From: Allobaculum mucilyticum
Lineage (GTDB): Bacteria; Bacillota_I; Bacilli_A; Erysipelotrichales; Erysipelotrichaceae
Length of the DNA stretch: 64,000 nucleotides
Direction: 5' to 3'
NCBI RefSeq assembly: GCF_022701195.1
Contig: NZ_CP078089.1
Location: 2,728,001-2,792,000 of the forward strand
Below are positions 3,576 to 64,000 of the stretch, piece after piece. The position numbers and the translations under genes were made by a program. The notes beneath the pieces were generated by a model. The model ran no database searches. It saw only the letters and a list, made by a program, of their open reading frames with translations, and was not told the origin of the DNA. The first letter of the stretch is position 1. Each line of letters opens with the position of its first letter.

Positions 3576-4001
3576 ATGAAAATTGCAGTCAGTGCCTGCC
3601 TTCTTGGAGAAAACTGCCGGTATGACGGCAAAAACTGCAGAGACGAAGAACTGCTTCGTTTTCTGGAAGGTCATGAAGTCATTCCAGTCTGTCCTGAATG
3701 CAAAGCCGGACTTCCTACGCCAAGGACTCCGATCGAGCTTGTTGACGGCAAGCCGTTTGACAGAAACGGAACAGACCTCAGTGAGCAGCTCGAGCTGGCG
3801 GTCGACCAGACCGTAAGCGCTTTGAAAGAGCAGGGATGTGAACTGGCGATCCTGATGGAACGCTCCCCAACGTGCGGTGTCAGCACAATCTATGACGGGA
3901 CGTTCACTTCGAAACTGATTGACGGACAGGGGCTTCTTGCCCATAAGCTTTGCGAAGCGAACATACCAGTCATGTCTAAAAAATCACTTCACAGTTGTTA
4001 A
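3576..4001 (+). CDS. DUF523 family protein
   Basis: A 141-residue protein of the DUF523 family (YbbK-like), whose biochemical role is not established. The typical features are all visible: an N-terminal MKIAVSACLLGENCRYDGK with the paired cysteines, VIPVCPECKAGLPTPRTPIE in the middle, and CELAILMERSPTCG plus YDGTF in the second half. Conserved cysteines (CLLGxxCRYDG, CPE, SPTCG) suggest metal or Fe-S/thiol chemistry, but this is inference. A good AGGAGGA ribosome binding site sits about 6 bases before the ATG. It is preceded by the glgA hairpin and followed 53 bases later by ptsH with its own ribosome binding site, so it may be a single gene or share a transcript with ptsH. Confidence 0.88.
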   Translation: MKIAVSACLLGENCRYDGKNCRDEELLRFLEGHEVIPVCPECKAGLPTPRTPIELVDGKPFDRNGTDLSEQLELAVDQTVSALKEQGCELAILMERSPTCGVSTIYDGTFTSKLIDGQGLLAHKLCEANIPVMSKKSLHSC

Positions 4002-10903: not shown

Positions 10904-11092
10904 CATTTGTCCTTAGAAAAGGCATACCCGACTCAGATGGATCTGTTATGTTTAATGCGTATTAAAGCGGTTTGATTATACGGAACGTAGCTTCTTCATT
11001 ATCCTTAAAAGATGATAAGGGCACCAGAAGGTGGGGAAGTCCCAGATCTTCAAGCCGTCTGTTGGGAGCATTCACAGAAAGAAGGAAAAATC

Positions 11093-12193
11093 GTGGAATA
11101 TAGAACAAACAGAAGAACGGGAGATAAGTTCAGCGAAATTGGAATCGGAACAGCGGAAATCGGCTTTGCCAGTCACGATGAAGCGATTGCAGCAATACGC
11201 GCAGCCTATGATCGAGGCGTTCGTGTGGTTGATCTGGCTGGCGGTCATCAGAGAATCTTCGATTATGTTGGTGAAGCGTTTGAAGATGTCCGTGATCAGA
11301 TGATTTACCAGGTTCATTATGGAGCCAATTATGAGCAGGGCGATTATGGATGGACGACGAATCTGAATAAGGTCAAAGAACAGACTGCCGATATGATGAA
11401 GCGTCTTCGTACCGACTACATTGATTACGGATTCATTCACTGCCTGGATGAAGACAAAGATCTTGATGCCTATATTAAAGGCGTATCAAAGGCGGTGTTC
11501 TCGATTATCTTCTTGAAAAACAGTAAGACGGAACAGTCCGACATATCGGCCTTTCGTCGCATTCTCCAGAACTGGTTAACCGGGTGCTGGATCAGAATCT
11601 TATCGATCAGCTGATGTTCTCGATTAACCCGGCTTATGATTTTGAATCCGGTGACTATGCAAACGGATCCCCGGTTCAGCGTCAGGAAATGTATCGCCGC
11701 TGTGAAGAACTTGGTGTCGGTATTACTGTCATGAAGCCATTAGCCGGCGGAACGCTGATCGATGAAAAACGGACTCCGCTTTCCCGTCCGCTTACAGTCG
11801 GACAGTGTGTTGAATATGCACTGTAACAGCCAGGCGTTCTCTGTGTTGTCAGCGGTATTGCCTCGCAGAAACAGGGAAAGGAACTTCTTGATGCCTATGA
11901 AGAACCGGCTGCAGATAAAGAACTGCCGGATCATCTCTATGATGGATATTACAAAAGGTGTCCGCCATTGTGTCTGCTGTTCTCATTGCCATCCGTGCCC
12001 GGCAGGTCTGAACATTGCGCTGATCAATAAGTATTACGATCTGGCAAGAGCCGGCGATGATATGGCAGCGGATCACTACATGAAACTTGAAAAGCATGCT
12101 GAAGACTGTGTTCAGTGCGGTCATTGCTCTTCAAGATGTCCTTTCCATACAGATCCGATGAACCGGATGATGGATATCAAAGAGTACTTTTGA
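11093..12193 (+). pseudogene. Aldo/keto reductase with C-terminal ferredoxin-like domain, decayed
   Basis: Three frames together spell one aldo/keto reductase of the type that carries a C-terminal double 4Fe-4S domain. Readable pieces: EIGIGTAEIGFAS and AYDRGVRVVDLA (NADPH barrel start), TDYIDYGFIHCLDE (substrate strand), GVLDYLLEKQ and RHIGLSSHSPELV, VGITVMKPLAGGTL, PGVLCVVSGI, and the cysteine motifs CVCCSHCHPCP and CVQCGHCSSRCP. At least four lesions are visible: a frameshift near 11480, an in-frame TAA near 11524 where KDG is expected, a TAA at 11824-11826, and a frameshift near 11955. The GTG at 11093 after AAGAAGG is the likely original start, though an in-frame ATG exists at 11012. Two nonsense codons make genuine decay more likely than sequencing error here. 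Confidence 0.85.
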
Positions 12194-33177: not shown

Positions 33178-33625
33178 ATGGCGACAGTATCAATCTTTGC
33201 TGTCGATTTTTTCTACTGTGAAGCATTGCCCAACGGTGTACTGATGTGCAAGGGAGAAAAGCGTGTCAGCGGGCGTTCCTCCAACACAAAAGGCAGCGAT
33301 GACATCATCTCCAACGGTTCAGCAGCTGCCTTGCGGACGGTCAGGACATGATTATCGTAGAACAAGGCAAGATCGTGGAGGTCTGCACTGAGCCCGGTGA
33401 ATTTATATTCGATAGCTCCACCGAGCCATCCATCTTTGAAGGCAGGCTGTGCAAAAGCATCGAGAATACATTCAAAACCATCGATAAACGTTTCGCTTAC
33501 GGCGGTGACACTGGCAAGGATCAGCGGATATTTTCAACACCAAAGAATTTTGAGAACACCAAAGAAATTCGGAGCAGCAAATTCGGTAGACCCAATCCGA
33601 TCATATTGGAAGTGGTAAACAAGCA
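33178..33625 (+). pseudogene. Remnant of an SPFH-domain (YdjI/virion-core-like) gene
   Basis: Two overlapping frames carry the N-terminal part of an SPFH-domain protein of the YdjI type. The first frame gives FFYCEALPNGVLMCKGEKRVSG and SSNTKGSDDIISNG; after a shift near 33330 the second gives MIIVEQGKIVEVCTEPGEF, STEPSIFEG, TFKTIDKRFAYGGDTGKDQ and GRPNPI. These match, from memory, the start of intact SPFH proteins that are about 350 residues long; the rest is missing here. An AACACCAAAGAA direct duplication near 33536 and 33555 marks a further lesion. Intact relatives act at the membrane together with LiaH/TPM-type proteins in envelope stress, so the neighbouring kinase operon is suggestive. 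Confidence 0.75.
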
Positions 33626-33768
33626 TCCCCAGCACAACAGCCAGCTCCGGCTGCCCCGATGCAGAAAACTGTTCCACAGCGTCCTGCATGAAAAGGCAAG
33701 GGTGCACCGTCGGACAGGGGAGACGTTGTCCTGCAGCAGGAATCCTCATCAGGAAAAAGGAGGTGGAG

Positions 33769-34300
33769 ATGAAACGGATTCGAAGCGCATTCTTGATTGC
33801 GCTGCCTGCGCTGACGGTTCTGGGCGTGACCGGAGTTAGTCTGTTTCGTTATTTTGCTGCTGAACTGATCATGGAGAATGGCGGCACGATGAATCCGGAC
33901 GATATGGATAGTTCAGAGACTCCCGTAATACTGGATGGCGATCATACATACGCCGATAATGAAATACTGCTTCAGGTGATTTCAGGCACTTGGTCAAGTG
34001 AGGACGGGCACTATGTCATAGAGCTGGACAGCGACTGCCGCATCAGGCTTTCACTGGATGGCGAGCAATTACTGGATGATCATATTCAATTTGTCTATCT
34101 TCAGCCGGGAATCGTCCAGTCTACGGAGTTTTTCCTGGATTCCTGCGTATTGCAGAGGAAAGAAAGATGGATCACCTGCGGGGGAAAACACTTCCTATTT
34201 CCATGAGACCTCTGATAAAGATACTGGCGGCAGATTGATCCTGGAGCTCGACCTTACGGACACCAGCCAAACAGTCGAGTTCAAAAAGCAAGAGAAATAA
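33769..34300 (+). pseudogene. Small envelope protein of unknown function, frameshifted near the end
   Basis: The frame from ATG 33769, with a strong AGGAGG ribosome binding site, encodes MKRIRSAFLIALPALTVLG with an N-terminal hydrophobic segment. A roughly 100-residue extracellular or periplasm-facing domain follows, containing GTWSSEDGHYVIELD and CRIRLSLDGEQLL, a pattern seen in small lipocalin-like or DUF4923-like beta-rich domains; this likeness is weak. It stops at 34206, but a second frame continues with FHETSDKDTGGRLILELDLTDTSQTVEFKKQ to 34300, which reads as the natural C-terminus. A single indel near 34175 would join the two. No family name can be given. Confidence 0.55.
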
Positions 34301-34356
34301 CCAGAGATACCGTGAAGAAACAGCATCCTGAATCAACAAAAACGGAGAAAATTCCA

Positions 34357-34638
34357 ATGACTAACGACAGACAGGAATTTTTGAAGATCACTTCTATCCT
34401 GATGATCGCAGGCGGCATCATCGCCGGCGCAAAAGGTTTCAAGGCGTGCAAAGTCCCTGAGAATGCCAGGAAAGACGTGATCTGGGGCATTCTGAGCGCG
34501 GTTCTGAGCATTGTTTCTACGGTAATCGGTCTGATCGGCGGCGGAGAGTTCAGTATTACGAGTCTGGTGCTCAACATGCTGGTACCCGGACTGTACGTCT
34601 GCGGTGCCCTGAAAACAAAGCCCAATGTAAATGCTTAA
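34357..34638 (+). CDS. Small membrane protein of unknown function
   Basis: A 93-residue protein with two to three hydrophobic segments (FLKITSILMIAGGIIAGAKG, VIWGILSAVLSIVSTVIGLIGGG and ITSLVLNMLVPGLYVCGAL). A GGAG ribosome binding site precedes the ATG at 34357. It resembles small membrane proteins often encoded near SPFH/zinc-ribbon genes in Clostridia-like genomes, but I cannot name the family. It lies between a frameshifted secreted protein and a lipoprotein gene, all on the same strand, so a shared transcript is likely. Confidence 0.65.
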   Translation: MTNDRQEFLKITSILMIAGGIIAGAKGFKACKVPENARKDVIWGILSAVLSIVSTVIGLIGGGEFSITSLVLNMLVPGLYVCGALKTKPNVNA

Positions 34639-34675
34639 CAGCACACTATACCCACTTTTGAAAGGAAAAATTATT

Positions 34676-35143
34676 ATGAAAAAGATTTTAACGACCCTTC
34701 TGTCTCTCACAATGATGCTGGTCCTTGCTGCATGCTCCGGTGGAAGCAACGGCGGAAGTGTGCCCAAAACGACACCGGTTTCCGGCGACAAGGTAACGGC
34801 AGAGCTTCCTTCCGGCTGGAGCCTCGTAACCGGCACCGACATGAACGGTAATGACATGGCGGACTTCATCTGCCATACCGAGGAATTTGAATATGGCGAT
34901 CCCTATCTGCAGGTAGAAGAGTATACGAAGGATCTGGACAGTGCGAAGGCGCTTCTGGAATCCGGCGATCCCTATGGAACCTACGATGGAGAAAAAGAGC
35001 TGGCTAACGGCACCTGGTATCTGGCCAAAAATGCAGCCAGCTCACAGATTGGCGAAAAAGTGTTTATTGTAAAAGGCTACGAGTGTGATTTTGGAAGCGA
35101 TGAAGTACAGAGTATTCTCGGCAGTCTTCAGTGGGCCAAATAA
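34676..35143 (+). CDS. Lipoprotein of unknown function
   Basis: A 155-residue predicted lipoprotein. The N-terminus MKKILTTLLSLTMMLVLAACSGG is a complete type II signal with lipobox L-A-A-C, so the mature protein starts at Cys20 and is anchored on the outer face of the membrane. A Gly/Ser/Thr/Pro linker precedes a roughly 110-residue domain with ELPSGWSLVTG, DPYLQVEEYTKDL and QSILGSLQWAK. GAAAGGAAA precedes the ATG. No family is recognised. It ends the group of small envelope genes and is followed by a terminator. Regulation by the adjacent two-component system would be a reasonable but unproven guess. Confidence 0.75.
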   Translation: MKKILTTLLSLTMMLVLAACSGGSNGGSVPKTTPVSGDKVTAELPSGWSLVTGTDMNGNDMADFICHTEEFEYGDPYLQVEEYTKDLDSAKALLESGDPYGTYDGEKELANGTWYLAKNAASSQIGEKVFIVKGYECDFGSDEVQSILGSLQWAK

Positions 35144-53610: not shown

Positions 53611-53880
53611 TAGGGATTCTGCCGCCTTTCTGCCCCGAAAGAGACCTCTGAAAGCTTAGTTCGTTTCTTTTTTTACCCCATGTGTAATAAAAGACACAGC
53701 ATGGTCTATCCTGTAAAGGCAGGAGCAGAGAAGTAAATAGAAATAAATATGGAATGAAAAGCCGGAGCTGGACCAGTCCGCCTGCTGCAAAAGGAAGATT
53801 CGCCCGGTCGATTCCGCAAAGAAAAAGAACTAAAAAAGATGCGTCAGACAAAATACCCAATTTTGCTGACGGCAGATTTG

Positions 53881-55704
53881 GTGTTCATCAATAGTGAACA
53901 CAAACAAAAGCTAAATTGAGTTCAATATGTGAAATTGGGGCATATTTCACATACATAGCTTGAATCAGCGAAGATACAAGAAGATCCAATGCCTGTTTGG
54001 CATCTTCTTGTGCGTATTTCAGCACTCGTCTTACGTTTATTGCCGTAATAGCTAACGTATATCCGAATTTTTGCGCACTAACCCCTGAACGGAAGGGTAT
54101 CAATTTTTTGATTCCTTCTTAGCTGGTTTGGGATAGCTTCAACACCGTTTCTGAACCGGTAATTGGCAATTGCCTCTTCACTTTTCATGGTCCGCTGAAG
54201 GTGTGCTCTTTGGATCTTCTTCTGGGAAATGGTTCCAGATCTGACTCTTTTGTGATTTTTCATCGGGCATCGGCCAGTTGCAGCGAATGGGCAATCTTTA
54301 CAGGTTGTTTCTTTGTGGAATGAGATATTCCAGGAATCGGTTTTCTCGTAGTAGGTTACTCGATCTGCAGTCTTTCCGTTTGGGCAGGTTACCGTTTTTG
54401 TTTCTTCATCGATTTCGAAATCAGCAGTCAAATCGGGTGTTTCTTTACCCGTCATAGCAGTTCCTACAAGTTGAATTCCGTGTTCAGCTGCTTCATTGAT
54501 GTTATCCACGCTGATGTAGGCTCCGTCGGCAACCAAAGTTGTTTCGTCTCCTTCTTCAGCCATCTTCTGAATTTCATCTTTGGCGAACTTGGAATCGCTG
54601 TAGATATTGGGCTGGAAATCAAATGAGTCGATGATCTTTCGGTTGGTATCGAGGTCGACTGTTTCAGCGAAATTGCCAACGTATCCCTGGTGATTTTCAC
54701 CGGCCTTCTTACGGAAAGTCGATTCCGGCTCAACTGGATTGTTCAGGACAGTCGAGTTCAGCTCTTTCCGTCACGAACGGAATGAAAAGAGCCATCGGTG
54801 TTTGTGTTGACCTGCTCGGAAACAAAGCGGATGAGCATCTGTGCTTCTTCACAGTCATTCAGCGTGCCTGGAATCAGATCACGAACGGCACAGGCATCCT
54901 GAAAAGCGGTCTGCAGTTTTAGCCGCAGCCGGAGTATGGGAGTGATAAGTAACCTTATTCTCATCGAAGTCCTCGATATAGTGTTGAAGATTCTCGGGGA
55001 TTGCGATTTTGTTTTCATCCAAAACCATGAGCATGTTTTTAATGACCACATGCGCCAGCTGCAGTCTTGAAAGCTTTCTGGCGCCGTTATCGACCATGAT
55101 GGAGTCCATTCTCCGCTTGAGATTGGTGCCAAGATAGGCGTCTTTAAGAGACTTGGCCAGTTTTTCGGCAAATTCATGGAGAAGATCGATGCCAGTCTGC
55201 TGCATATAAAAGGCATTGGCAGCACGAAAGCGGTTAAGCGTTCTCTGGTTTACCGGCTGATGTTCAAAGGACGTTGTTCCAAGAGCGAACTGATACTCCA
55301 GAGAAAAAGGTAACGCTTCTCTCCAGTTCTTCGTCTGTCAGAGTAAACAGATCTTTCAAAACAAGCATAGCTAAAACGAGGTATGTAGGAGTTGAAGGTC
55401 TGGTGTTGGTGTTCTTTGAGTAAAGAGGCTCAAAAATCGATTCAAGTTTAACCAGCTCAGGAATAATGACACGGTTGAAATAGCCCGGCCAGCCGGATTC
55501 AAGCATTCTGAGCTTTCGATCAGAAAGTGAGTAGGTTAGATCGAAGAGATTCATCTGAATGGGTTTGAACTTGGACTGCGACATAAGAAACACCCTGAAA
55601 TATTCAATTATATTATACTACTAATATTAATTTAATCGAGATTAATTTCAATTAATTGTAGCATTATTTTGAAAAATTCGGATCAGTCCAAGATTTATGA
55701 ACAC
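53881..55704 (-). mobile_element. Degraded IS1182-like element
   Basis: A broken transposase gene (53888-55593) is framed by candidate ends GTGTTCATCAAT at 53881-53892 and ATTTATGAACAC at 55693-55704, which are inverted repeats with one mismatch. No target duplication is evident. The short repeats fit the family only loosely, so the ends are tentative; the identity of the interior is better supported. Confidence 0.6.
53888..55593 (-). pseudogene. IS1182 family transposase, multiply frameshifted
   Basis: The pieces in order on the minus strand are: an N-terminal domain (FKPIQMNLFDLTYSLSDRK, STPTYLVLAMLVLKDLF), then DSIMVDNGARKLSRLQLAHV with the first catalytic Asp region, LNDCEEAQMLIRFVSEQ, TTLVADGAYISVDNINEAAE with the second Asp, the cysteine-bearing KDCPFAATGRCPM segment, and a C-terminal piece with FGYTLAITAINVRRVLKY. 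These follow the IS1182 order, but at least three to four frame changes separate them (near 55240, 54900, 54740 and 54095). It cannot give a working enzyme as written. In view of similar indels in every gene to its right, some may be consensus errors. Confidence 0.8.
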
Positions 55705-55774
55705 ACTTCAGCTATTTGTTACTTTTTGTCGGGCGCATCTAAAAAGAAATGAAAGAAAAAGAGGAGGAAAATTT

Positions 55775-56828
55775 ATGATTGGAAAGAAGAAACTGTTCAG
55801 CCGCATTCTGGCACTCACACTTGCCGGCAGCATTCTGCCTGCAATTCCAATCGCAGCCAAAGAAGCAGAGTTTGAAGATGAAGTAGTCTTCGTTGAAGAA
55901 CAGAAGCAGAATGAACAGGGAAATGTCTGCCCGACTGGCGGTATCGGCATGTATCGTCTGTACAACCCCAACAGCGGTGAACATTTCTATACCAGTTCAG
56001 CCGGTGAGAAGAGCATGCTCGTTTCAATCGGCTGGAACCTGGAAGGATTTGGCTGGAATGCTGCGAAGGATCAGAGCGTTCCGGTCTATCGTCTGTACAA
56101 CGCCAATGCCGGTGACCATCATTACACAACCAGCAAAGCAGAACGTGATCATCTGCTGAGTGTCGGCTGGCGTGATGAGGGAATCGGCTGGTATTCCGAT
56201 CCCAACCAGGGAATCATTCTGTACAGGGAATACAATCCAAATGCCAAAGCCGGTGCGCATAACTACACGACCAGTCTGAACGAACATAAGGGCCTGATTA
56301 AAGCTGGCTGGCGTGATGAAGGAACAGCCTGGTACGGCGAAACATGGAACTGGAAAAACCGTTCAGATATCTGGAACGAATTCCTGACATCCAAAGCGTA
56401 TCGAAAATGGACATCCGCAACCGTCAGAAACGCAAAGGGTCTGGAGTACACCGTCATGGACTATGATGCTGACGGAAGTACGGAACTCTATCTCCGCTTC
56501 AATGACGGCATGGGATTTGGATTCAACTGGCTGTTCTCCTTGATGCAAATCAGCAGCCGTATCTCGTAGATAGCTGCTACGGCTTCGCACCTTATCAGTA
56601 CTGCCGTTCGAAAAATCTGATTCTTGTTCCGAATGAGTTCAAGAACGCTCAATGCTCTGGATGTCGAACCTTGCAGCCATTGAAAATGGAAAACTGGTTT
56701 CAAAACTCACTGTTGTTTTTGATAACGGACAGTACAAGATCAACGATAAACAGGTATCTGCTGCTGAAGCAGATGCAGCCCGTGCCAATTCTCAGTGTGA
56801 TTACCCGAACTTTCACCCAGTCCCTTAA
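55775..56828 (+). pseudogene. Secreted protein with DUF5648-like repeats, frameshifted
   Basis: ATG 55775 starts MIGKKKLFSRILALTLAGSI, a signal peptide with cleavage near AIPIAAKE. It is followed by three copies of a repeat of about 45 residues of the form YRLYNPNSGEHFYT...GW..EG.GW, as in DUF5648 modules that occur on cell-wall hydrolases and surface proteins of Bacillota. The C-terminal domain is split by two shifts near 56537 and 56670: other frames continue with LLDANQQPYLVDSCYGFAPY and then KLVSKLTVVFDNGQYKINDK to the stop at 56828. The intact protein would have about 350 residues. Function is unknown; a surface-binding role for the repeats is an inference. AGGAGG precedes the ATG. Confidence 0.75.
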
Positions 56829-56938
56829 AAGTGAGGAAGTAACTGTCTGCATTTCCTGCGGCAGCTGACTTCGTTCTTATGATCCATACGGAATATCCGC
56901 AAAGCAGAAATCAGAAGCGTGAAGAGATATACGAACAG

Positions 56939-56980
56939 AAATATATACGAAATATATACGAAATATATACGAAATATATA
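56939..56980. repeat. 11-bp tandem repeat, 3.8 copies
   Basis: AAATATATACG repeats at 56939, 56950 and 56961, with a partial fourth copy to 56980. It lies in a gap between genes and before a terminator. Confidence 0.9.
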
Positions 56981-56998
56981 AAGGATAAGAAAAGCAGA

Positions 56999-57036
56999 CC
57001 GGGCGGCTGAGAGTTTACTCAGGCGCCCGGCTTATG
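56999..57036. terminator. Terminator downstream of the aminotransferase
   Basis: CCGGGCG-G-CTGAG pairs with CTCAG-G-CGCCCGG, a 12-bp stem with one internal mismatch; CTTATGTTTTTT follows on the plus side. It can serve the minus-strand aminotransferase or the plus-strand secreted protein. Confidence 0.7.
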
Positions 57037-57096
57037 TTTTTTAATGTTCAGATCAGCAGTCAGTTCTGACTGCTGAATGAGGAAATCCTGTACAGG

Positions 57097-58295
57097 TTAG
57101 AAGATCAGAACTGCTTCCTCGGTCGTGACAAGTGCAGGCCCTCTGACTTCATCCAGGAATGCTTCGATCCGGTCACAGGCTTCCTTAATATTCTCCAGAG
57201 AGGTTGCATAGGAGATTCGAACAAAGCCTTCGCCGTGTTCGCCAAATGCGGTGCCTGGAACGACCGCAACTTTCTGTTTCTCCAGAAGCTGAACGCAGAA
57301 CTGATCAGAGGTAAGTCCTGTCGAAGAGATGTCCGGGAAAACATAGAAGGTGCCATGCGGAACATTCGTGCGCAGACCCATCCGGTTCAGACGGGAGCAG
57401 AGCAGGTTGCGCCGCTGTTCGTACTCCTTTTTCATTTCTTCTGTATCCGGAAGACCGTTCTGCAGAGCTTCAATCGCTGCATACTGCGCAGCCGTCGGTG
57501 CGGACATGATGATGAACTGGTGAACCTTGGTCAGCTGAGAACTGAGTTTTGCATTGCAGAGCAGATAGCCTAAGCGCCAGCCCGTCATTGCAAAGGCTTT
57601 GGAGAAGCCGTTGATGACAAGAACCTGATCTTTTATGGAATCAAAGGAAGCAGGGGAGCAGAACTCGCCGTCAAACAGAAGTTCAGCATAAATTTCATCA
57701 GAAATAATATAGATACCCGATTCTTCAAAAAGCGGAATCAGCTTCTCATAGTCTTCACGGCTCATGGTGCCGCCGGTCGGATTGGAAGGGAAGTTGAGCA
57801 TGATTGCTTTTGTTTTCTCGCTGAGTGCATTTGCAAGATCTTCCGGAGTCAGTTTGAAATCGTTGTCCTGGCTGAGCTGAATGTAGACAGGAGCACCGCC
57901 GGCCATCAGGATGGACGGCTCATAGGCAACATAGTTCGGGTCAAGAACGATGACTTCATCGCCTGGATTGATGAGTGTACGGAAGCACAGATCGACAGCC
58001 TCGGATCCGCCTACAGTAACGAGCGTTTCTTTTGCGGGATCATAGCTGACATGGAAACGGTCTCTGTAGTAGTCGCAGATTGCTTCGCGCAGTTCCATCA
58101 GACCGCGGTTTGCGGTGTAATGGGTGCATCCGTTCTGAAGGATTCAATTGCGGCATTCGAGATATGCCATGGAGTATTGAAATCCGGTTCGCCGATACCC
58201 AGAGAGATGACGCCCTCCATGGAATTGGCAAGATCGAAGTATTTGCGGATTCCGCTTGGCTTCAGATGTTCGATGGTATGGTTGATCGATTTCAT
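57097..58295 (-). pseudogene. PLP-dependent aminotransferase (class I/II), one frameshift
   Basis: A fold-type I aminotransferase of the aspartate/aromatic type. The N-terminal 53 or so residues (PSGIRKYFDLANSMEGVISLGIGEPDF) are in one frame from ATG 58295; the rest from NRGLMELREAICDYYRD onward is in another. The second part has GGSEAVDLC, NPSNPTGG-like FPSNPTGGTMS, SDEIYAELLFDG and the PLP lysine in VINGFSKAFAMTGWRLGYL. A missing base in GAATCCTTCAG near 58140 is all that separates them; restored, the protein has 399 residues, the normal length. One indel in otherwise well-conserved sequence could be an error of the assembly. It is 7 bases downstream of the Lrp gene and probably co-transcribed with it. 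Confidence 0.8.
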
Positions 58296-58302
58296 TAATA
58301 GC

Positions 58303-58792
58303 TCACCACCAGTCTGTTTTCTTTTTATCCGGACGGCCAGCACCGGTGAGAATGCCGCTCTGCTTGTACTGTTTGAGTACGAAAAGCGTTTTGGTGGACT
58401 GTACATCCTGGATGCAGGCAATCTTGTCGGAAACAAAGGAGCAGACTTCAAACATGGTTTTTGCCTTCAACAAGGAGAATGAAGTCTTTATCGCCGGTAA
58501 TTAAATACATGGAATTGACTTCCGGATAGCCGGCCATCAGGTTTGCGGTATAGTCATAGCCTTTATCGCGCATCGGCTTAACACCGACCTCGATAAACGC
58601 CAGAATCTTCTGATCTTTCTGAACCTTGTTGTAGTTGATGACGGTGTGGTAGCCGCAGATGATCTTATCCTCTTCAAGTCTGCGAACTTCGTCTCTCACA
58701 TCGCCTTCTTCTTCGTTCAGAATATCGGCAAGATCGCGGGTGTTGAGCCGCGCGTCTTTTTCAAGCAGTTCAAGAATCGCGTTCGTATTCAT
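58303..58792 (-). pseudogene. Lrp/AsnC family regulator, one frameshift
   Basis: The N-terminal winged helix (ILELLEKDARLNTRDLADIL, DVRDEVRRLEEDKIICGY) and the RAM effector domain (KILAFIEVGVKPMRDKGYD, VNSMYLITGDKDFILLVEG) are intact. After EGK an AAAAA run shifts the frame, producing NHV and a stop at 58448. With one A fewer the frame continues TMFEVCSFVSDKIACIQDVQ, which completes the RAM domain, to the stop at 58303 and gives 162 residues, the usual length. It probably regulates itself and the downstream aminotransferase in response to an amino acid. The promoter is TATAAT-based with an overlapping cre-like site. Confidence 0.82.
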
Positions 58793-58825
58793 AAATTCTC
58801 CTTTTGCCGGAACGGCGTTTTTCCT

Positions 58826-58853
58826 ATTATAAGCGCTTTCCTCTGATTGAAAG
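58826..58853 (-). promoter_or_regulatory. Promoter of the Lrp-aminotransferase operon with overlapping cre-like site
   Basis: On the minus strand CTTTCA, 16 bases and TATAAT (plus-strand 58826-58831). The cre-like TATAAGCGCTTTCC (58828-58841) overlaps the -10 element, which would favour repression. 58854-59047 contains no gene. Confidence 0.55.
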
Positions 58854-59047
58854 AGACAATTCCTGAAAACGTCTCTGGCAGATACTGTTTATAGAAAAGA
58901 AAGCCCTTTCTGTTCGCAAGACATGCATACCTTAAGGGAATCTCATGTCTGTACGGTCAAGAAAAACAAGCGAAAAGGATACTAAAATCAACTTATATCT
59001 GATTGCTTTTCTATAGAGTAAAGATATGCCCGGAAGCATCCTGTTCA

Positions 59048-59076
59048 TTGACAGCCAAAAGCCAGCCCCCTATAAT
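59048..59076 (+). promoter_or_regulatory. Consensus promoter of gapA
   Basis: TTGACA (59048-59053), 17 bases, TATAAT (59071-59076): a perfect consensus sigma-A promoter. AAAGGAGG follows as ribosome binding site. This indicates very high expression, as expected for GAPDH. Confidence 0.92.
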
Positions 59077-59108
59077 TGAAGACGGTATTAAAGGAGGATT
59101 TACTGATC

Positions 59109-60132
<1,024 letters not shown>

Positions 60133-60158
60133 TCCAGCTTTAACCACTTACACTCACT

Positions 60159-60185
60159 GAGAAGGCTTTCGAGCCTTCTCTTTTT
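60159..60185 (+). terminator. Terminator of gapA
   Basis: GAGAAGGCT, a TTCG tetraloop, AGCCTTCTC and TTTTT. Confidence 0.95.
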
Positions 60186-61028
60186 GAGTTTACGGGGATG
60201 AAAAAGCTGAATTGCGAAAAGACAGCAGGCAAATTGGCAGCAAACAAAGAACAATTCAGAGTTATCTAAATTTTCTTATTGCAGAGAAGGGCACTTTCAT
60301 ATGTAAATCAATGTATTTACACAAAGACCTTACGCTCTCTGGATTACCAGATTTAAAGAATGACTGCAGGCGCTTAATGGCGTCTCTTTTCTGCGTCCTG
60401 GAGCGAAGAGAATAATGGTCGGTTGTTGTCAGGTCTGTCCAGAAGCGGCCGCATCAGAAAGAAAAGGTTTGATGATGAGTAATAAATAACGTTTGATGAT
60501 GAGTAATAAATTTTGATAAAGAATAATAAATATGGAAAAGAATTGACCAGAAGTCGTTGAATCTCAGAATTCGAGGACCAGTCAGTCTTGCATCTTTACG
60601 TGCGAGAGACACCTCGCAAACAAAGAGATCCTGAAGGACGAGTATTCCGGTCAGTATCAAAAACCTTCCAATTCTGTCATGAAAAGAATCTGAAAAAGTT
60701 TAATGGTCTATGTGCTGATAGATATGGAACGAATTTAATAAATAGCGTCAATCCTGTAATGAAATTGCCCGAACAACTTAAGAAATTGTGAATTGGAAGC
60801 GTTATAATAAATCGGAATTTACAAAATCATTGCCCGAACTGGTATTTCTTTGGCTGGTTCGCAAAGGGATAATGAATTGTAAACGTATTTGGCTGAAGAA
60901 GGGCAAACTTCAGTCAGAGATTCAGATCCGCGGGCAATTCCGGATCAGTTTATCCGGTAAGACAGACAGCCAGGGCGGGCGTTCTGTCGGATTAAGATCT
61001 GAAGCATTAAGAAGAGAAAGGAATCAGC
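60186..61028. other. Gene-free stretch before the GH20 gene
   Basis: About 840 bases without a supported gene. It holds the direct repeat at 60467-60511, and at 60794-60807 TGGAAGCGTTATAA, which matches the cre consensus at 12 of 14 positions and overlaps a TATAAT at 60803-60808, so it may be the GH20 promoter region. Confidence 0.5.
60467..60511. repeat. Direct repeat with 24-bp period
   Basis: GTTTGATGATGAGTAATAAAT occurs at 60467-60487 and again at 60491-60511, separated by AAC. Confidence 0.9.
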
Positions 61029-64000
61029 ATGAAATTTAGAAAACTCACAGCTTCGCTGCTGTCTGTTGCACTTTCTGGAACAGCTGCAATTTCTGCCGTT
61101 CTTCCTGCTGCATCCATGGCAGTCCATGCCGAAGAAACTTCGTCTACGGACATGTCGCAGTATGGTACCAACCTTGCACTCAACAAAACTGCTACAGCGA
61201 GCTCTATAGAAGCTTCATCAGTCGCAGCTTCCAATGCGGTAGACGGCGATACCACTTCCCATAGTTCCCGCTGGGGTTCTAATGTAGGCAATGGTCCAGA
61301 CTGGATCTATATTGATCTCGCAAAACCTTCTACAGTTAAAGCCGTACGCGTTTTCTGGGAATCGTATAAGGCAACATCGTATAAAATCCAGTACGCAACA
61401 GAAAATCCAGGAGCAGAAGCATCCTGGAAAGACGTAAAAGTGTTTAATGCACGGCCAACCGCTTTAACGGAAGTCATTCCTTTTGATACTCCTGTTAACG
61501 CACGCTATATTCGCCTTTATATTGGCTCGCATACGTCGCATGATCCTCAGAACACAGTAGATGATTGGAATACAGTGTCCATCTTTGAGCTTGAAGTTTA
61601 TGGCGAAATCGATGCGAACTATCAGGATCCAAACGAGAACGTCGCTCTGAATAAAACGGAGCTGCCAATTCGACAGAAACAGCAGATTTTACTGCAGCAA
61701 AGGCATTCGACGGTGATACATCAAGTTCCCGCTGGAGTTCTGCTGAGGCAGACGGACCGCACTGGATTTATGTCGATCTGGGCAAAGAAATGGACGTACA
61801 GACTGTCCGTCTTTACTGGGAAACACGTAAAGCCAATAACTATACTATTTCTACTGCAACTGGTGAACATACAGCTGAAGAACTTGCTGGTGAAGATGTC
61901 TGGACCCAGCAGTATGCCAACGATGGCCGTCCAGCAGAGCTGAAGGATACGATCAGTTTAGAAGCACCAGTTAAAGCCCGTTATGTTCGACTGAAAATCA
62001 ATAGCTTTACTCAGAGGATCCTGATGGCGGCGTAACGTGGAATACCATTTCCATCTATGAAATGGAAGTTTACGGAGGCATCCCTCAGGCACAGAAATGC
62101 AATTCAGTTGCGGACATCAAAGATGCTCTTGAACTGAATCCGATCACAACAGAATCCACAAAAAGTTTCTGCTAAACTTCCGGAATTTGATGCCGAAAAA
62201 TTCTCTGTTGAATACAACGGTACAGACCTCGAACAGGTTGTTGACTCAGATCAGAATATCCTCAAACCATTAGTTGATAAGCAGGTCAAAGTCTCCTATA
62301 AGATCACAGATAAAACGACCAATGCTTACGACTTCAAAGAAATCACTGTCACTATTCCTGGTGAGCATCAGGTAGAAGAAGGCGACAATGATGTTCCAGG
62401 CATTCTTCCTCCAATTCAGGAATGGAAGGGTGCAAAAGAAGGTGCTTTTGCAATTACTGAAAACACGAAAGTTCAGTATGCAGATGATAAATATGCCTAT
62501 GCAGCTCAGGCACTTGTCGATGATTACAAGGAAATGACAGGTACGCAGATTTCTGCAGAAAAAGTGGCTGCCCTTCCGGAAACACCGGCAAAACACTATT
62601 ACCTTTGGTGCAGGTACATCTGAACTTGGTGAAGAAGACTACCGCATGACGATTGGTGCGAAATCAATTCAGATTGGCGCTAATCATTCGACAGCAGCCT
62701 ACTGGGCAACCCGTACCATTCTGCAGGGCATCAACAACAGTTCTGACAAAACTCTGCGCTGCGGTGAAATGCGTGACTACCCGACTATGAAGGTGCGCGG
62801 CCTGATTCAGGACGTTGGACGTAAGACATTTACTCTCGACTACCTGAAACAGCTGGCTAAAGTACTCTCCTGGTACAAGCTGAATGACTTCCAGGTTCAT
62901 CTGAACGATAACTACATCCAGCTCGAACAGTACAAGAACGTTAACGGCGAAGACCGTCGTCTGATCGATCCGTATTCGGCTTTCCGTCTGGAATCGGATA
63001 TCAAAAAAAGGCGGAAATGACGGCAAGAACCAGGCCGACCTGACTGCGACAGACGTCTTCTATACGAAAGAAGAATTTGCGGACTACATCGAAGAATGCA
63101 AGAACATGGGTATTACCATTGTTCCTGAATTCGATATGCCTGCACACGCTCTGGCAATGACCAAAGTCCGTCGGATCTCAAGACGCCGGATTCGGACATG
63201 CCGCACGTAACCACGAACGGCAACCGTTCCCCGGCTGACCATCTCGACCTGAACCATCAGTACGACGATGTCATGGGTTTGTTAAATCCATCTGGGACGA
63301 ATACACAAGCGGAGAGACAAAGTCTTCGATACTCCGTTATTCATATTGGAGCTGACGAATACGAAGCTGGTTCTGCAGCATACCGTAACTATGTGAATGA
63401 TATGTTCAAGTACGCCGAAGACAAAGGCTATACTCCACGTGTCTGGGGTTCTCTGACTCAGCTGAGTCAGGGCGCAACTGTATCTGGTGCAACCTACAAT
63501 CCGGATGGAACGGTCAAATCCCGCCGTCAGATTAACCTCTGGAACTTTGGCTGGTCAAATCCGAAAGCAATGTATGATCTTGGCTTCGAACTGATCAACT
63601 GCTCTGACGGAACATTCTATATTGTTCCGAATGCCGGCTACTACTATGACTATCTTGGTGATTCGCATCTGTTCAATACGCAGATCAACAACATGAGCAG
63701 CTTCAAAGTTCCTGCCGGTGACGAACAGATGGTCGGCGGAGCTTTCGCAATCTGGAACGACATGATCGACAACGCTGAAAATGGCATGTCGGAATACGAT
63801 ATCTACAAACGTACGATCCGTGCTGCAGGTATGATGGGAACCAACCTGTGGGGCAAAGGAAACATTACCCAGGCTGATGCTACGTCAATCATCGATCAGT
63901 ATCCGGAAGTACCGGGAACAAACTTCAACTACAACGTTAAAAATCGGAAAACGGAGCCATTACATCCGTTGATATGGAATCCACTACGGATACAACCGGA
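61029..64000 (+). pseudogene. Secreted GH20 beta-N-acetylhexosaminidase with CBM32 domains, many frameshifts, 3' end outside window
   Basis: A large secreted enzyme that removes N-acetylglucosamine or N-acetylgalactosamine from glycans such as mucins. A signal peptide (LTASLLSVALSGTAAISAVL, cleavage near VHAEE) is followed by two F5/8-type (CBM32) sugar-binding domains (about 61170-61610 with NLALNKTATASS, SRWGSNVGNGPDWIYIDL; about 61640-62075 with DGPHWIYVDLGKEMDVQTV), a GH20b-like domain (TKVQYADDKYAYAAQALVDD), and the barrel with KVRGLIQDVGRKTF, WYKLNDFQVHLNDN, VPEFDMPAHALAM and the catalytic pair in HIGADEYE (Asp-Glu at 63354-63359). At least eight frame changes occur (near 61660, 62025, 62165, 62600, 63008, 63170, 63278, 63325), several in homopolymers. 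AAGAGAAAGGA precedes the ATG. Confidence 0.82.

Follow-up and report, generated by a model that had tools for sequence, protein, structure and literature searches.

Two described cases come closest to the locus considered here. In the Polypolish report (PMC8812927), short reads prefer the error-free copy of a repeat, which leaves the errors in the other copies, while in the Kastor report (PMC12007338), long-read errors make intact genes look like pseudogenes. The present case concerns a 64,000-base window (bases 2728001-2792000 of a 3,144,153-base genome assembled in one contig, with a listed completeness of 92.5%), at the right-hand end of which the genes, including that encoding glyceraldehyde-3-phosphate dehydrogenase (GAPDH), gapA, an essential enzyme of sugar breakdown, are broken by frameshifts. 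This patch is very probably an assembly artifact due to uncorrected long-read error, and not a case of real gene decay. As in the Polypolish report, mostly homopolymer deletions break the frames, and some copies of the repeats are corrected while others are not; unlike the case described there, a unique block of 10.6 kb is also affected here, which goes beyond that mechanism alone. The resemblance to the Kastor case lies in intact genes taking on the appearance of pseudogenes; whereas Kastor compares with a curated set, the comparison here is between repeat copies within one genome.

All six of the protein loci located at 53.9-64 kb are frame-broken, as the initial annotation of the window had claimed for the IS1182 transposase, the DUF5648-like protein, the aminotransferase, the Lrp regulator, GAPDH, and the GH20 enzyme: the open reading frames (ORFs), the Pfam matches on the pieces, and the frameshift detector agree on this point. 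The detector is a reference-free coding-frame hidden Markov model (HMM) which tracks the frame and was trained on the long ORFs of the same genome. Unless stated otherwise, counts were obtained at a frameshift penalty of 10 after filtering out natural gene junctions, and only filtered counts give rates (without the junction filter, at the lowest penalty, the number of events per 10 kb coding is as high as 3.1 in the controls vs 4.7 in the genome studied). Ten frameshifts were flagged in the 7.87 kb of coding sequence at 53881-64000 and three in the 38 kb at 1-53880; treating events as independent, the excess in the last 10 kb (10/13 events) gives a binomial P of 3.6e-6. No in-frame stop events were flagged by the detector in 53881-64000, where the lesions are nearly all indels. 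The three events located in the window outside the patch are at 3983, 32342, and 11526. The first two are probably gene junctions missed by the filter, since each adjoins separate ORFs with their own Pfam domain, and the third lies inside an aldo/keto reductase gene that is genuinely split over frames. At 11 control loci from three congeners (G002, G003, and G004), no frameshifts were found in 66 kb of coding sequence (two events at penalty 8), and twenty 20-kb stretches of the genome studied gave 34 in 297 kb.

The multi-copy insertion sequences (ISs) and ribosomal RNA (rRNA) operons provide replicates within the genome, and the presence of two quality classes among them, only one of which shows recurrent homopolymer indels, supports a consensus error. 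All 26 full-length, near-identical copies of IS1182 present in the genome were aligned; one more copy is in two pieces. The transposase frame is intact in 15 of the 26 (573 amino acids, aa; 577 aa in one case) and broken in the other 11, including the copy at the edge of the patch. In a 1792-base interior, which was chosen because the first alignment limits took in flanking sequence that inflated the substitutions, the intact copies jointly show 7 substitutions, 1 insertion, and 0 deletions, and the broken copies 13, 9, and 55, respectively, i.e., 64 indels to 13 substitutions vs 1 to 7. True divergence between copies of a young element should consist mainly of substitutions, and the pattern observed is that which noisy long reads give. 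A deletion in a C5 run occurs in all 11 broken copies and in none of the 15 intact ones. Nine deletion sites are common to at least two copies, in broken copies only, eight of them, besides the C5 site, being shared by two to six copies. Since the C5 deletion occurs on every substitution-marked lineage (the copies with 130G, those with 1828T, and all the others), and since the 130G marker (three broken and three intact copies) and the 1828T marker (three broken and four intact) cut across the two classes, the broken state recurs and is not inherited. Runs of 5-6 bases, which account for 2.6% of the bases, contain 34 of the 55 deletions in the broken copies, although recurrent sites inflate the P value of this enrichment. 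Read on the plus strand of the window, these deletions number 17 in C5, 15 in T5/T6, and 2 in A5, and the preference for A-runs put forward previously was not borne out. The patch-edge copy differs from the family majority by 1 substitution, 2 insertions, and 4 deletions; its longest ORF is 230 aa, as compared with 573 in the intact copies, and its best NCBIfam match, transpos_IS1182, scores 143 bits, below the cut-off of 270.

The copy of IS1182 in two pieces (G000:C1:1368013-1371576) has an IS4-type copy between the pieces, which overlap by 10 query bases, as a target-site duplication would give. At G000:C1:3142246-3144153, an intact IS1182 copy reaches exactly to the last base of the contig, which may thus have been truncated there or have stopped at a repeat.

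The other IS families were counted in the sampled stretches only. Nine of the 13 copies of the IS4-type family present at 4.6-6.0 kb in the window (F2; F5 is the same family and was counted once) do not show any differences, and the four broken ones carry a total of 27 deletions, 19 substitutions (15 of them in a single copy), and 4 insertions, all located in that same copy. Families F3 (5 copies), F4 (2 copies), and F6 (6 copies) are too small or too divergent for the two-class test: the longest frame is reached by one of the five F3 copies and by one of the six F6 copies, the latter having 10 substitutions and 9 deletions. The genome contains 15 near-full-length rRNA operons, an unusually high number, four of which are located between 2.28 and 2.37 Mb. 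The 12 operons included in a majority comparison show 0 deletions and one insertion, which is common to four operons and is probably a true length variant. Two further operons were compared with that of the window: the one at 1196.1 kb has 3 gaps, while bases are missing at 21 sites from that at 2293.9 kb. The latter operon follows closely on a broken IS1182 copy and a short stretch of unique sequence in which two frameshifts were flagged.

The lesions in gapA are identical in size with respect to both of the congeners that have a match, G001 and G002: a base is missing near 59460, an extra one is present at 59489, and two are missing near 59615. The minus-one change followed by a plus-one change previously described in this gene was thus recovered, and the third lesion is additional to those listed earlier. 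As a comparison with close relatives had been suggested, it is worth stating that in both of these congeners, where the lesions are absent, gapA forms a single open frame (368 aa in G001 and 364 aa in G002); no match was found in G003 or G004, which are both incomplete genomes. Among the 59 genomes searched, the studied genome included, 50 have a gapA match. It had also been proposed that a second, intact gapA would speak in favor of real pseudogenes: in a domain search of the whole genome, Gp_dh_C and Gp_dh_N were each matched only once, in both cases within the broken gene. Three aldehyde dehydrogenase matches were obtained, apparently from two genes. The model nearest to the full-length one is a benzaldehyde dehydrogenase, with a score below the cut-off of that model, and no non-phosphorylating GAPDH model is present among the 25 listed of the 38 models matching it; the second aldehyde dehydrogenase gene was not classified.

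The ratios of non-synonymous to synonymous substitution rates (dN/dS) of the gapA frame pieces are 0.005 and 0.043 vs G001, and 0.025 and 0.057 vs G002. The values obtained vs G001 are 0.082 in the case of the aminotransferase (214/341 codons), 0.027 in that of the Lrp regulator (68/110 codons; 0.078 vs G002), and 0.069-0.118 in those of four GH20 pieces (GH20 pieces vs G004: 0.139-0.257); a clean neighboring gene gave 0.050 vs G001 (392/551 codons) and 0.130 vs G002. The aminotransferase value vs G002 was not used because dS was saturated. The relaxed selection expected of pseudogenes is not seen in the frame pieces (0.005-0.118 vs G001), although dN/dS is blind to a very recent loss. The broken-looking genes have been under normal selection, which is strongly purifying in the gapA pieces.

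The damage had been described for the last 10 kb of the window; the patch runs about 4 kb further, to a second IS. Further events occur at L049:751 and 1092 (up to genome position 2793.1 kb), and the IS at the right-hand edge (L049:2401-4145, genome 2794.4-2796.1 kb) has its transposase in two ORFs matching two parts of the IS1634 model; over 1604 bases, this IS shares 98.3% identity with a copy near 521 kb. The ORFs on its far side are uninterrupted, including one of 471 aa which we take, from its translation, to be a cysteinyl-tRNA synthetase gene, and the detector flagged nothing further in the remainder of L049, nor anything in L050. The left edge is formed by the IS1182 copy, and the gene before it, whose translation suggests a phosphofructokinase, has a single open frame (552 aa). 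The gene order in G001 matches on both sides, without the IS1182 and DUF5648 segment.

The distribution of the events was studied in a sample of 0.98 Mb (31% of the genome), partly picked around IS1182 copies and hence not random, in which repeats (at least 400 bases at 95% identity, rRNA included) make up 15.9% of the bases. The frameshifts number 59 in the sampled repeats (6.69 per 10 kb coding) and 43 in the unique sequence (0.67 per 10 kb); the present block accounts for nine of the latter. Among the 10 of the 11 broken IS1182 copies whose flanks were checked, nine have internal events and four have no events in either flank, while none of 14 intact copies has internal events; the flanks show 2.38 events per 10 kb coding around broken copies and 0.76 around intact ones. 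In 181 four-kilobase bins, taken from 33 stretches and from the window, the variance is 2.7 times the mean. Poor quality is not a general property of the unique intervals lying between two repeats: among the 32 such intervals sampled, this one has nine events and the others 0-3.

The reading proposed in the initial annotation was that of a local consensus error, with true decay and recoding as alternatives. The consensus error is borne out by the two classes of IS and rRNA copies and the recurrent homopolymer indels, while "local" has to be taken more widely, since other patches, mostly in IS copies, exist elsewhere in the sampled part of the genome. A stretch of about 14 kb, from 53.84 kb in the window to about 4.1 kb past its end, would have retained the indels left in the consensus by noisy long reads, while the greater part of the contig was corrected, presumably with short reads; in the cell, all of the genes, and gapA among them, are most likely intact. 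The division of the IS copies into two classes fits the repeat mechanism given in the Polypolish report, whereas the 10.6 kb unique block needs another cause. We infer that this cause is specific to the block, as it is the sole high-event interval among the 32. We likewise infer the sequencing platform, and that the block was most likely gap-filled from long reads between two short-read contigs ending at IS elements, or was missed by the polishing reads. Several points weigh against this explanation. The evidence is drawn from the assembled sequence. The block is not a repeat, and its bracketing by repeats does not in itself explain the damage. The detector flagged no events in the right-edge IS, although its transposase is in two ORFs, and 13 of 14 rRNA operons are free from damage of the 21-gap type. 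With the wider alignment limits (intact IS1182 copies: 14 substitutions, 1 insertion, 0 deletions; broken copies: 51, 10, 56), substitutions are also more numerous in the broken class, mostly at the copy ends and in two copies (13, 16), and one substitution, 364A, occurs in two copies, both broken.

The block between the two IS elements might instead be an island of pseudogenes in a cell tolerating the loss of gapA. Its position between ISs in an IS-rich genome would suit such a true decay, as would a very recent loss, with which the dN/dS values are compatible; but the broken gene is the only GAPDH gene found, neither an intact second copy nor a non-phosphorylating substitute emerged from the searches described above, the lesions are nearly all indels without any flagged stops, and the same class of indels recurs in IS copies and an rRNA operon, so that we regard it as very unlikely. 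Even less credible is a real and very recent burst of single-base indels (due, e.g., to IS-linked slippage) affecting IS copies, one rRNA operon, and the gapA block, which would leave the cell without any phosphorylating GAPDH. Programmed ribosomal frameshifting or some other recoding process joining the frames would be consistent with the conservation of the frame pieces, but one or more shifts would be needed in each of six unrelated neighboring genes, those in gapA are absent from both congeners having a match, and recoding cannot explain the same type of gap in the operon at 2293.9 kb, rRNA being untranslated. It is already contradicted, and its probability is negligible.

A chimeric assembly, in which the block comes from another strain at low coverage and hence has a poor consensus, is a variant of the long-read error explanation and is compatible with it. 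It would account for a discrete, unique, poor block between two shared IS elements, and the agreement of the gene order with G001 on both sides is what a haplotype of the same species would also keep. Strain divergence alone makes no frame-breaking indels, however, so that uncorrected error would still be required, and we consider this variant to be unlikely. Under the explanation based on uncorrected long-read error, the feature would not be a biological one.

Table 1. Features of the damaged part of the window (window coordinates).
Feature	Position	Strand	Remarks
Probable error patch, in-window part	53838..64000	.	Extends ~4.1 kb past the window, as far as about 2796.1 kb in the genome
IS1182-type element	53838..55740	-	26 full-length copies in the genome; frame of the transposase broken in this one
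DUF5648-domain protein	55697..56828	+	PF18885 at 3.4e-51; C-terminal part split over frames
Class I/II aminotransferase	57097..58297 (upper limit approximate)	-	PF00155 at 2.9e-75; broken near 58.13 kb
Lrp/AsnC-type regulator	58303..58792	-	PF13404, PF01037, PF13412, two of these below the Pfam cut-off; broken near 58.46 kb
gapA, glyceraldehyde-3-phosphate dehydrogenase	59109..60132	+	PF00044 and PF02800; three lesions
GH20-type beta-hexosaminidase with F5/8 type C domain	61029..64000, continuing past the window	+	PF22633, PF00754, PF02838; many breaks

The evidence available varies among the other loci listed in Table 1. Gaps seen with respect to G001 alone were not counted as lesions, because G001 carries errors of its own. 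In the aminotransferase gene, the detector event at 58126 is accompanied by the loss of one base at 58137-58138 vs G001 and G002, and in the Lrp regulator gene, that at 58464 is accompanied by a non-triplet gap at 58462-58463, amounting to two bases vs G001 and one base vs G002. The events in the DUF5648 gene (56540 and 56651) were flagged only at penalty 7, the lowest and most permissive setting; the DUF5648 domain itself lies within one open frame, and no relative was used for this gene. In the GH20 gene, events were flagged at 61664, 62008, 62162, 63004, and 63945. The alignment with G004 shows 66% identity and 51 non-triplet gaps, many of which form compensating pairs, and since it is so gappy, the roughly eight sites at which G004 agrees with G001 provide no more than supporting evidence.

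The congeners compared were G001 (one contig, 58% complete), G002 (310 contigs, 98%), G003 (66%), and G004 (67%). Nine stretches of G001 gave 96 frameshifts in 133 kb of coding sequence, i.e., 7.2 per 10 kb coding. Frameshifts occur in all nine of the stretches sampled from its single contig (L052-L060), and 86 of the 96 were scored as deletions. These frameshifts probably explain the 58% completeness of G001. Caution is required here, since the genome studied and G001 each stand as the one genome of their species: it would be wrong to conclude from either of them that a gene, such as gapA, has been lost. In a genome assembled in a single contig, error can be told apart from decay without reads by means of the multi-copy ISs and the rRNA operons. 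Our literature search covered the general phenomenon only, and we make no claim as to whether the errors in this genome are in print.

In a scan of genome contigs with the gapA piece, of which the best 80 matches were kept, relatives reach at least 86%; those named include Dielma fastidiosa (86%), Merdibacter (82%), and Holdemania (81%), along with many Lachnospiraceae. In a comparison of the 16S gene with plasmid records, relatives stand at about 80% in the five records listed of 535. The source organism would seem to be a gut bacterium belonging to the Erysipelotrichales.

No tRNA genes were found in the window. The region directly upstream of the rRNA operon (11012-12193) holds two ORFs over which an aldo/keto reductase that includes a 4Fe-4S part is divided, which may reflect either an error or a true pseudogene. 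Several short overlapping ORFs, one of which has a weak PA14 match, are located at 33348-35143 and could correspond to either a broken gene or a fast-changing one.

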